Under the pieces are notes generated by a model. It made no database searches, was not told where the DNA came from, and saw nothing but the letters and a program-made list of their open reading frames with translations. From Clostridiales bacterium (GTDB lineage: Bacteria; Bacillota; Clostridia; Christensenellales; Aristaeellaceae): DNA of 42,312 nucleotides. Below are positions 30,139-32,881 of the stretch, piece after piece; within the stretch, counting starts at the first letter, position 1; each line of letters starts with the position of its first letter. Made by a program: the position numbers and the translations under genes. The stretch covers positions 1 through 42,312 of the forward strand of contig JAAYDR010000011.1 in the NCBI GenBank assembly GCA_012729115.1. The letters run 5' to 3'.

Positions 30139-30168
30139 TCCAGGGGGCTACGCCCCCTGGATATTTTA
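30139..30168. terminator. Terminator at the convergent operon ends
   Basis: 10-bp stem TCCAGGGGGC/GCCCCCTGGA with a 3-nt loop, followed by TATTTTAT on the plus strand and by a weaker tract on the minus strand. Stops the cdaA operon and may act on the convergent acyl-CoA synthetase gene, whose stop codon it touches. Confidence 0.85.
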
Positions 30169-30582
30169 TCGGTTTCTCATCAGGTGGCTCTTGTCGTACT
30201 CCACCAAATCCCAAAGGTTCCCATACAGGTCCTTGAACACCGCCACCGTTCCATAAGGGGCCTGTTTGGGTTCCCGGACAAACTCGATGCCTCTGCCCAG
30301 CATCTTTCTGTAATCCCGCCAAAAGTCGTTGGTTTGCAGAAACAGGAATACCCTGCCGCCGGTCTGCTCGCCAATGAAGGCTTCCTGCTGGGCCTTGCTG
30401 GCACGGGCCAGTAAAATTCCGCTCTCCTTGGAGCCCGGTGGGGCCACCACCACCCAGCGCTTGTCCTGTTCCTGCTGATAGGTATCCTCCAGCAGGATAA
30501 AATCCAGCTTTTGGGTAAAGAAGGCAATGGCTTCGTCATAATCCCGTACAACAAGGGCCATCAGGGCAATGGACTGCTTCAC
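30166..30582 (-). CDS. Possible internally initiated VOC-domain protein
   Basis: In-frame GTG at 30582 with a perfect AGGAGG (30593-30588) at 5-nt spacing begins exactly where free-standing VOC proteins of this type begin (x-KQSIALMAL). It would give a 138-aa protein inside the synthetase reading frame. Either this is a second product or a relic of a separate gene fused by loss of the upstream stop codon. Needs protein evidence. Confidence 0.45.
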   Translation of the reverse strand: MKQSIALMALVVRDYDEAIAFFTQKLDFILLEDTYQQEQDKRWVVVAPPGSKESGILLARASKAQQEAFIGEQTGGRVFLFLQTNDFWRDYRKMLGRGIEFVREPKQAPYGTVAVFKDLYGNLWDLVEYDKSHLMRNR

Positions 30583-32259
30583 TGCGGCCTCCTGGTGCTC
30601 GGTGCGGCTTCCTTCATCCCGGGTGCGAATCAGCTTTCGCTGAATCTTCCCGCTGATGGTCTTGGGAAGCTCCTCCACGAACTCAATGATACGGGGATAT
30701 TTGTAGGGCGCAGTAACGGATTTCACATGCTTCTGAAGGGCCCTGACCAACTCGTCCCCGGCCTCGTACCCCCGGTTTTTCGCCAGTACCACGGTAGCCT
30801 TGACCACTTGCCCACGGTCCGGATCGGGCACGGCGGTAACTGCGCATTCCAGCACCGCCGGATGGGTTAGAAGCGCGCTTTCCACCTCAAAGGGCCCGAT
30901 GCGATATCCGCTGGACTTGATCACATCGTCACTGCGGCCGATGAAGTAATAGTATCCCTCTACATCACGCCAAGCCATGTCCCCGGTATGGTACAGCCCT
31001 CCCTGAAACACCTCGTCGGTCTGTTCCTGGTTATGATAATAGCCTGCGAAAAGCCCCGGCGGGTGACCCCGATCAAGACGGATGACGATCTCACCCTCCA
31101 CGCCGTCCTCCACCTCATTGCCCTGCGCGTCCACCAAAGCGATATGATAAGCGGGAGAGGGCTTGCCCGTAGAACCGGGCTTGGGTTCCATCCACTTGGT
31201 GGTCATCAGCAAGGGCGTGGTTTCGGTCTGCCCGAAGCCTTCGCGGATCTTCACCCCGGTGGCTTTGAGGAACTGCTCATATACCTCGGGGTTTAACGGC
31301 TCTCCGGCACAATTGGCCCACCGCAGGTGGCTGAAATCATACTTGCTGATGTCCTCCTTGATCATGAAGCGATAGACCGTGGGAGGCGCGCAGAAGCTGG
31401 TAACCCTGTGCCGTGTAATTACCTCCATCAGCTGGGAGGCCACAAGACGGTCAAAGTCATACACAAACAGGGTCGCGCCGCAGATCCACTGGCCGAACAT
31501 CTTGCCCCATCCTGCCTTGGCCCAACCGGTATCCGCCACGGCCATGTGAATGTCGTCGTCCCCCAGATTGTGCCAGTAATAACCGGTTACCGTCTGGGCG
31601 ATGGGATAGACCCAGTTGTGGGTTGACATCTTGGGCATCCCCGTGGTGCCGCTGGTAAAGTACATCAGCATCCTGTCCTCATTGGCGGGAAGATCCTTGG
31701 GTTTCTCCCAATGGGGGGAGGCTACCTCCAGCTCTTCGTTGAAGTTGAAAAAATGCTCGTCCTCACACAAGGTGAAAAGGGTGCGCACCGTTTTGCAATC
31801 GGGCTTTGCCGCCCATACATTGGCCCGAACCTCTGCCTCGTCCACACACAGGATGGCGCGGGCCTCCGCCGCGTTGGCCCGATAAACAATGTCCTTTTTT
31901 TGCAGCTGCGCTGTGGCCGGAATCAGTACGCAGCCGAGTTTGAGGAGCCCCAGAAATGCAATCCAGAATTGATAGCGGCGCTTGAGCATCACCATCACCG
32001 GTTCGCCCTTTTTCAGACCATGGGCGGCAAACACGTTGGCGGCCTGGTTGCTTAACCGGCTCATCTCGCCAAAGGTAAAGGTTCTCTCGTTGCCATGCAA
32101 ATCACACCAGATCAGCGCCCGCTTTCCCGGCTCAGTCCTGGCGTACTCGTCGATGATGTCATAGGCAAAATGAAAGTGCTCCGGTATCTGCAGGGAAAAA
32201 TACCGCTCAAACTCCTCTTGAGAAGTAAAATCCGTCCGAATATATCGATCCGCCAGCAT
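30166..32259 (-). CDS. Acyl-CoA synthetase (AMP-forming) fused to a VOC/glyoxalase-like domain
   Basis: 697-aa two-domain protein. Residues ~1-547 are an AMP-forming acyl-CoA synthetase of the medium-chain/acetoacetyl type: phosphate loop YFTSGTTGMPK (200-210), a GFGQTE motif, a GYRIGPFEVES hinge region and catalytic K538 in PKTISGK. It activates a carboxylic acid to its CoA thioester. After a short linker, residues 560-690 form a complete VOC domain (VVRDYDEAIAFFTQKLDF... YGNLWDLVE) of the kind normally encoded as a separate ~135-aa protein. At the junction lie AGGAGG and, 5 nt on, an in-frame GTG, so the VOC part may also be made alone. It is preceded by an XRE-cupin regulator on the same strand. 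The acid substrate is unknown. Confidence 0.9.
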   Translation of the reverse strand: MLADRYIRTDFTSQEEFERYFSLQIPEHFHFAYDIIDEYARTEPGKRALIWCDLHGNERTFTFGEMSRLSNQAANVFAAHGLKKGEPVMVMLKRRYQFWIAFLGLLKLGCVLIPATAQLQKKDIVYRANAAEARAILCVDEAEVRANVWAAKPDCKTVRTLFTLCEDEHFFNFNEELEVASPHWEKPKDLPANEDRMLMYFTSGTTGMPKMSTHNWVYPIAQTVTGYYWHNLGDDDIHMAVADTGWAKAGWGKMFGQWICGATLFVYDFDRLVASQLMEVITRHRVTSFCAPPTVYRFMIKEDISKYDFSHLRWANCAGEPLNPEVYEQFLKATGVKIREGFGQTETTPLLMTTKWMEPKPGSTGKPSPAYHIALVDAQGNEVEDGVEGEIVIRLDRGHPPGLFAGYYHNQEQTDEVFQGGLYHTGDMAWRDVEGYYYFIGRSDDVIKSSGYRIGPFEVESALLTHPAVLECAVTAVPDPDRGQVVKATVVLAKNRGYEAGDELVRALQKHVKSVTAPYKYPRIIEFVEELPKTISGKIQRKLIRTRDEGSRTEHQEAAVKQSIALMALVVRDYDEAIAFFTQKLDFILLEDTYQQEQDKRWVVVAPPGSKESGILLARASKAQQEAFIGEQTGGRVFLFLQTNDFWRDYRKMLGRGIEFVREPKQAPYGTVAVFKDLYGNLWDLVEYDKSHLMRNR

Positions 32260-32310: not shown

Positions 32311-32865
32311 TTAGGGGATCACCATCGCCAAAAAATGCACCGGCTCCTCACCCACAGCCTGCATGGCGTGGGGGGTGCTGGAGTTGTAATACACACTGTC
32401 TCCAGGACGCAGCACAACTTCATTCTTTCCGATGACCATGCGCATCACGCCGGAGAGGATGTAATCAAACTCCTGTCCCTCATGGCTGTTGGGCACCATC
32501 TCCCGGTTTGTTCCCGGAGGAACGGTTACATACAGGGGCTCAATCTTCCGATGGGCAAAGTTATAGGCCAGGTTCTTATACGTGTATTGGTCATGACGGA
32601 CAATGTCCTGGCCTTTGCCTGCCCGGGTCACGCTGAGCACGCTGAGCCGGGGGGCCTCCCCTGTTAACAGCTCGGTCATATCCACATGAAAGACCTCGCC
32701 GATCTTCACCAAAAAACTGATGGGCATGTCCACTTCGCCGCTCTCATACTTCCGGTATTCCTCTACGGGTACGCAGAGTGCATCCGCCATCTGCTGGACT
32801 GTGTAGTCCGAAATTTCGCGAAGATCAAGAATGCGCATGGCAATCTGCTTCACCGGGTCGGACAT
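32311..32865 (-). CDS. XRE-family regulator with C-terminal cupin domain
   Basis: 184-aa transcriptional regulator. Residues ~7-62 form a helix-turn-helix of the XRE type (DYTVQQMADALCVPVEEYRKYESGEVDMP). Residues ~95-184 form a cupin_2 barrel with HEGQEFDYILSG and LRPGDSVYYNSSTPHAMQAVG, the two cupin motifs. Such regulators commonly sense a small metabolite and control the neighbouring catabolic or CoA-ligase genes; here the acyl-CoA synthetase-VOC gene follows after 51 bp and is the obvious target. AAAGGAGGGATCACC precedes the ATG. Only 16 bp separate it from holA, so it may also be transcribed with the comEC-holA genes. Confidence 0.88.
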   Translation of the reverse strand: MSDPVKQIAMRILDLREISDYTVQQMADALCVPVEEYRKYESGEVDMPISFLVKIGEVFHVDMTELLTGEAPRLSVLSVTRAGKGQDIVRHDQYTYKNLAYNFAHRKIEPLYVTVPPGTNREMVPNSHEGQEFDYILSGVMRMVIGKNEVVLRPGDSVYYNSSTPHAMQAVGEEPVHFLAMVIP

Positions 32866-32881
32866 GGTGATCCCTCCTTTT

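Follow-up and report, generated by a model that had tools for sequence, protein, structure and literature searches.

What does a complete VOC (glyoxalase) domain contribute to the acyl-CoA synthetase (ACS) to which it is joined in frame, and how did the two come together? The gene that raises this question lies in the window, the whole stretch of 42,312 nucleotides analyzed here (contig JAAYDR010000011.1 of the Clostridiales bacterium assembly GCA_012729115.1). Synthetases fused to accessory domains are known in general, and the architecture of orthologous metabolic enzymes is normally kept within one genus. At this locus, a gene that keeps its position behind the same regulator gene differs among close relatives in its tail, for which at least six domains or states are seen. 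Such tail exchange on one orthologous enzyme is more surprising than the VOC fusion itself.

Architecture of the fused protein

The fusion is confirmed as real, complete and contained in one frame. A minus-strand open reading frame (30166..32259) encodes 697 amino acids from an ATG start, with 0 internal stops. The ACS part (residues 1-549; 30613..32259, minus strand), delineated by Pfam, a structure-database match and motifs, contains the AMP-binding (residues 37-408, E 1.5e-71) and AMP-binding_C (residues 458-538, E 5.7e-23) domains, both over the curated cut-offs, and so belongs to the AMP-forming acyl-CoA synthetases (ANL superfamily). A short linker (residues 550-559, GSRTEHQEAA; 30583..30612, minus strand) leads to the VOC domain, denoted VOC-A (residues 560-697; 30169..30582, minus strand, with the stop codon at 30166-30168), which is identified by Pfam, alignment, structural modeling and fold matches. 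The Pfam Glyoxalase domain (PF00903) covers residues 565-684 (E 1.2e-16, 61.6 bits vs a cut-off of 20.6). When the linker was checked by structure prediction, the AlphaFold model of the fusion consisted of two folded parts, with pLDDT <50 over residues 548-564 between them. The preliminary description of this locus had given the place, order and completeness of the two parts in a single frame, all of which the reading frame, Pfam and the motif check bear out, although it omitted the strand; the catalytic K538 that it named is indeed the lysine of PKTISGKI.

The GC content of the two parts is equal (0.566 and 0.563), and so is GC3 (0.709 and 0.710), which speaks against a very recent arrival of the VOC domain from a source of foreign composition. 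Literature searches yielded no description of an ACS-VOC or any ACS-tail fusion, in line with the earlier statement that no described enzyme with this domain order was known. Pat-type enzymes combine a GNAT with an NDP-forming synthetase domain; the window protein has no GNAT match in Pfam and is not of this type, GNATs being found only in its relatives.

The synthetase and its regulator

The ACS part contains the ANL core motifs TSGTTGMPK, GFGQTE, HTGD and PKTISGKI (with K538), SGKI being the A10 motif. Among solved structures, its best relative is 3etc (residues 6-549, E 7e-201), with human ACSM2A next. 3etc is MacsMa, the medium-chain acyl-CoA synthetase of Methanosarcina acetivorans, for which a preference for 2-methylbutyrate is reported (PMC10455477). 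MacsMa shares the motifs of the window ACS but, unlike the window protein, has no VOC or other tail. Family membership suggests that the substrate of the ACS would be a short, branched or aromatic carboxylate. Among the 25 NCBIfam matches listed, none reaches its equivalog cut-off; the best, MbcS (NF047394), scores 464.4 bits vs a curated cut-off of 850, so that this name is rejected for the ACS, which works like an MbcS at most.

Directly upstream of the ACS-VOC gene, on the same strand, is a gene for a regulator with an XRE helix-turn-helix and a cupin domain (32311..32865, minus strand; Pfam), preceded by AGGAGG (32873-32878), 7 nt and then ATG. An XRE-cupin relative is present in 78 of the 81 loci tested, which were retrieved through matches to the ACS or to its VOC part and form overlapping sets rather than yielding 78 independent cases; the exceptions are L044, L046 and L047. 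In some ACS paralogues, the XRE helix-turn-helix and cupin are fused in front of the synthetase (L045:3341-5620 and L042:3284-5554 by Pfam, L034 by reading), which amounts to a DNA-binding synthetase. The common upstream location and the fused forms together mark regulator and enzyme as a lasting pair, and they make the upstream signal testable too. The window gene is a copy of this conserved Clostridia pair of an XRE-cupin regulator and a MacsMa-like ACS. The clusters of open reading frames on both sides of the fusion gene are also common to relatives.

Exchangeable tails of orthologous synthetases

Orthologues located behind the same XRE-cupin gene carry, after PKT[IV]SGKI, a GNAT (of four sorts), another VOC or nothing. 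Orthologues were recovered at E 1e-200 from 13 of the 17 genomes of the genus; G013 adds another that is divided between two contigs. VOC-A is present in the window genome (G000) only. GNAT-A is the tail in G001, G002, G007, G009, G011 and G015, as well as in the split orthologue of G013; GNAT-B is found in G003 and GNAT-C in G014 and G016, and the GNAT tails of the genus orthologues pass Pfam. The orthologues of G005 and G012 are tail-less, with a stop 12 residues after the motif, and that of G008, whose linker resembles the one before GNAT-A, is truncated where its contig ends. Two further tails complete the picture: VOC-B, in G408, behind an ACS broken by a frame change, and GNAT-D (Pfam) in G535, a member of another genus, which is of the GNAT-B sort (34% over 134 residues). 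The ACS-GNAT forms have an orthologous ACS, the same upstream regulator and the same junction as the window protein, but their tail is an acetyltransferase rather than a VOC domain. The G408 locus (L039/L199) is the same sequence as JAJFVI010000009.1, and the frame change inside its ACS is either a sequencing error or real decay.

Across the wider family, 40 of 308 genomes have an ACS match (E 1e-205). Twelve of these are tailed, namely G000, the nine intact genus orthologues with GNAT tails, G408 and G535, with the split G013 as a thirteenth; 26 are tail-less, with frames of 547-596 aa (frame length being the sole basis for this state in at least G348, G434, G437, G438, G454 and G517); and 2 are cut by contig ends (G407 and G008). 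Thus, 11 family genomes other than that of the window have a same-junction tail in frame with the ACS C-terminus (in G408, the ACS is broken further upstream), and the split G013 comes in addition. In an even class-wide sample, 88 ACS matches were found in 72 of 291 genomes (E 1e-190), and without the window's own, 87 of 87 are tail-less with frame length (551-607 aa) as the sole criterion; these matches include paralogues, with at most four candidates scored per genome. Two contigs end shortly beyond the ACS match, at the tail junction, one in G407 (the end of C101, L197; 8 nt) and one in G008 (the start of C97, L117; 23 nt), perhaps because strains differ at the junction or perhaps by coincidence.

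The tree of 34 ACS parts, from which the split G013 was left out and in which G408 is represented by a portion of its broken ACS that retains one stop, contains one clade of 15 (100/100) that holds all tailed forms placed except G535, which groups with the tail-less G416 and G417 (98/91). Next to VOC-A lie VOC-B and the cut G407 (97/85). The bearers of GNAT-A are scattered in the tree and interspersed with those of GNAT-B and GNAT-C and with two tail-less genomes. A previous ACS tree with 24 rows agrees in the main, the forks near the window being open. This distribution of tails requires several joins or exchanges. The tail-less G005 and G012 may have lost a tail or may never have been tailed, the forks around them having 80-89% support or being open.

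Stand-alone relatives exist for VOC-B (57%), GNAT-C (46%), GNAT-B (32-39%) and also for VOC-A. The derivation of VOC-B from VOC-A by divergence is not favored, given 34% over 58 residues vs 57% to a stand-alone protein, and neither is that of GNAT-C and GNAT-B from GNAT-A, although the 23-32% similarity between the GNATs leaves room for it. The GNAT tails are under purifying selection, with dN/dS of 0.11-0.24 in six pairs vs 0.02-0.10 for the ACS (simple pairwise values, with dS up to 1.18).

We conclude that the ACS end just behind SGKI has been joined several times in one family lineage to different small domains, of four GNAT sorts and two VOC sorts, a layout comparable to that of proteins with variable C-termini. 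Across the 17 genus genomes, PF00583 (GNAT) has 17-64 matches per genome, a strong spread within one genus, and PF00903 (VOC) has 0-5, which makes VOC genes rare. A genome in this genus is estimated to hold some 2,500-3,500 genes. With GNAT and VOC together under about 3% of genes, it is unlikely that all six tail sorts would belong to these two families by chance, which is an argument rather than a test. Conversely, because GNAT genes are common in the genus, their chance capture is easier, and part of the tail pattern may be the capture of common genes. Provided that the tails are functional, they offer natural hints at the use of the ACS product and a ready-made series on how fused accessory domains redirect acyl-CoA.

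The VOC-A domain and its stand-alone relatives

By PF00903 and matches to VOC folds, VOC-A is a member of the VOC superfamily. It is 62-75% identical to small proteins (L049-L114) from Bacillota, Chloroflexota, Bacteroidota, Pseudomonadota and others. Judged by frame length, all 66 of these closer relatives are apparently encoded by small genes of their own, one of which is truncated by a contig end. The question whether homologues are always encoded as two proteins, which had been posed as a challenge to the fusion, is thus answered differently for the two parts: yes for the VOC relatives and no for the ACS orthologues, which have other tails in frame. VOC-A has no match in 59 other relatives at E 1e-3 or in 290 other class genomes at E 1e-30, so that inheritance of the VOC-A tail in the genus is rejected at these thresholds. 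Together with the close stand-alone relatives in many phyla, this makes an outside origin of VOC-A most likely. In the tree, VOC-A lies nearest to the Clostridiales record L049 (74%), although the support is weak (81/74), and its end branch is 0.44 vs a median of 0.10.

In the register of E. coli GloA, residues 566, 602, 638 and 684 are the presumed metal-ligand positions of metal-dependent VOC enzymes. At these positions, VOC-A has L566, W602, F638 and D684, and the stand-alone family has H, W, F and D. The latter three residues are the same in nearly all VOC-A relatives. At 566, His is found in 65 of the 65 readable close relatives vs Leu in the window protein (among the 68 aligned relatives, L114 has no residue there, and L046, with L, and L047, with S, are set apart). 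Hence the whole family appears to lack the usual ligand set, and the fused copy has one ligand fewer. The expectation of metal chemistry by the VOC part, voiced in the preliminary description, is not borne out under this register. A canonical metal glyoxalase I or methylmalonyl-CoA epimerase is rejected, His/Glu-type ligands being absent from the four positions as a set. A new role would account for the lost His and the long branch, but decay or drift would do so equally well.

The sole NCBIfam match of the VOC part is SMU1112c/YaeR, at 19.9 bits vs a cut-off of 140. The VOC-A domain model has a mean pLDDT of 91.3, and the solved structures nearest to it in fold are TnmS1, UcmS2 and TnmS2 (TM-score 0.75-0.77 by query), which are also the best profile matches, with 23-33% identity among the top 16 fold matches; VOC-A thus has a TnmS-type fold with significant similarity. 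Similarity to methylmalonyl-CoA epimerase is weak in the profile search (E 0.0046) and poor in structure (TM 0.37-0.39, rmsd over 12). As modeled, the TnmS-like fold and the poor epimerase match would support a binding pocket over metal chemistry. These three are described as antibiotic-binding and sequestering proteins, TnmS1 and TnmS2 in the titles of their structures, and a review reports that tiancimycin is sequestered (PMC9854587). Unlike the fused VOC-A, they are separate proteins in antibiotic gene clusters.

The junction and the origin of the fusion

VOC-A on this ACS is known from one genome, a draft assembly, and all evidence presented here comes from draft genomes. V560 is encoded by GTG (30580..30582, minus strand), and this codon aligns with the starts of the stand-alone relatives (M in 55, V in 6, L in 3 and a gap in 3; alignment of 68 rows). 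AGGAGG, a possible ribosome-binding site of the VOC part (30588..30593, minus strand), precedes it by 5 nt; this hexamer occurs 47 times in the window on both strands, about once per 1,800 nt, and is expected in a given 5-nt range in ~0.3% of cases. The two signals at the position of the stand-alone start make the fusion look like a joined downstream gene. VOC-B in G408 also retains an ATG at the aligned start.

Probably, a small separate VOC gene was placed behind the ACS gene, and the stop between them was then lost. Loss of a stop between neighbors would be the simplest history, with the VOC's own ribosome-binding site and start still present, and from this internal start, a free VOC may be made in addition to the fusion. 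In the alphaproteobacterial locus L047:3848-6112, a PRK07529-subfamily acyl-CoA synthetase (683 bits) ends with TAA, and immediately after it comes the GTG of a VOC relative that is 57.6% identical to VOC-A and has the Ser at the His position. By analogy, this layout may resemble the window gene before joining. In the window, the other two frames at the junction contain stops: a TGA in frame +1 that overlaps the GTG encoding residue 560, and another TGA near residue 547 in frame +2.

Possible functions of the VOC tail

Our leading explanation, put forward tentatively, is that the VOC tail is a ligand-binding accessory module without the usual metal site, carried by an ACS with repeatedly exchanged tails. 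The ACS, judged by its family, would convert its carboxylate to an acyl-adenylate and then to an acyl-CoA, and the VOC tail, on its flexible linker, would provide a small-molecule pocket for the substrate, product or inhibitor of the ACS, similar to ligand binding of the TnmS type. That 26 of the 40 family orthologues manage without a tail is a point against this explanation, and a binding role leaves the GNATs in the same place unexplained. In a broader proposal, which we consider conceivable but rather doubtful, the ACS would be a platform with an exchangeable C-terminal cassette behind a fixed motif, either a small-molecule-modifying GNAT or a small-molecule-binding VOC, such that one regulated activating enzyme would serve the species-specific handling of acids or toxic compounds.

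An unlikely alternative to the ligand-binding module is a follow-on enzyme, the role favored in the preliminary description: the VOC tail would act on the acyl-CoA made by the ACS (or on a reactive acid) as an isomerase or epimerase that lacks the standard metal site, and the GNAT tails would acylate amines. The position of the VOC on the ACS and the use of acyl-CoA donors by GNATs are consistent with such activities, as is the weak epimerase similarity seen in VOC-A and in the L047 protein (30.6 bits vs a cut-off of 114.95). The relationship of the ACS to ACSM2A points the same way; in the human glycine conjugation pathway, formed by ACSM2B and GLYAT, glycine N-acyltransferase (PMC8003330), a synthetase and an acyltransferase work together in this manner. 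L047, where a different acyl-CoA synthetase directly precedes a VOC relative, also fits, but it is a single case from a scan favoring loci with both parts. Against the follow-on enzyme stand the metal positions that are not kept, the lost conserved His and the poor structural match to epimerases.

Improbable is a regulatory role of the tails, with the GNAT acylating the active-site lysine in cis and the VOC sensing a ligand and altering activity or oligomer state. The lysine context PKT[IV]SGKI is kept in the GNAT-bearing relatives, the module is already regulated by the XRE-cupin protein, and there is a precedent for a GNAT paired with an AMP-forming synthetase, as in the ACS-GNAT relatives: AcuA forms a complex with AcsA and acetylates its K549 in trans (PMC11255334). 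These are, however, separate proteins with no VOC, and the regulation was demonstrated for AcuA/AcsA rather than for the window protein. Furthermore, GNAT-A is most similar to small-molecule acetyltransferases (ArsN1a, 50.6 bits, under the cut-off of 170).

No less improbable is a recent accident, in which stop loss ran a small gene into the ACS gene, leaving two independent parts, a useless link and a free VOC made from the retained ribosome-binding site. The kept start and AGGAGG, the single genome and the long branch agree with such an event, but 12 of the 40 family genomes have tails in this position, all of them GNAT or VOC, the GNAT tails are conserved in frame, and the two parts of the window gene have equal GC and GC3. 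That an assembly indel or chimera joined two separate genes is very improbable: with stops in both other frames, one wrong indel could create the fusion, and the contigs of G407 and G008 that end at the junction suggest difficult assembly there, but the TGA in frame +1 carries little weight, since it arises wherever a start codon precedes an A, the neighbors on both sides are common to relatives, and in-frame tails are present in 11 other genomes.

No conserved neighborhood points to the role of the stand-alone VOC proteins, the commonest neighbor cluster being near 5 of the 66 loci. VOC relatives are present in 109 plasmid records, and the 20 listed are labeled as VOC family protein or unlabeled; in the plasmid search with the whole protein, the 15 matches listed cover the ACS part alone. 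By reading, a GNAT-like gene lies within 4 kb of the stand-alone VOC gene in five loci (L050, L051, L066, L075 and L088).
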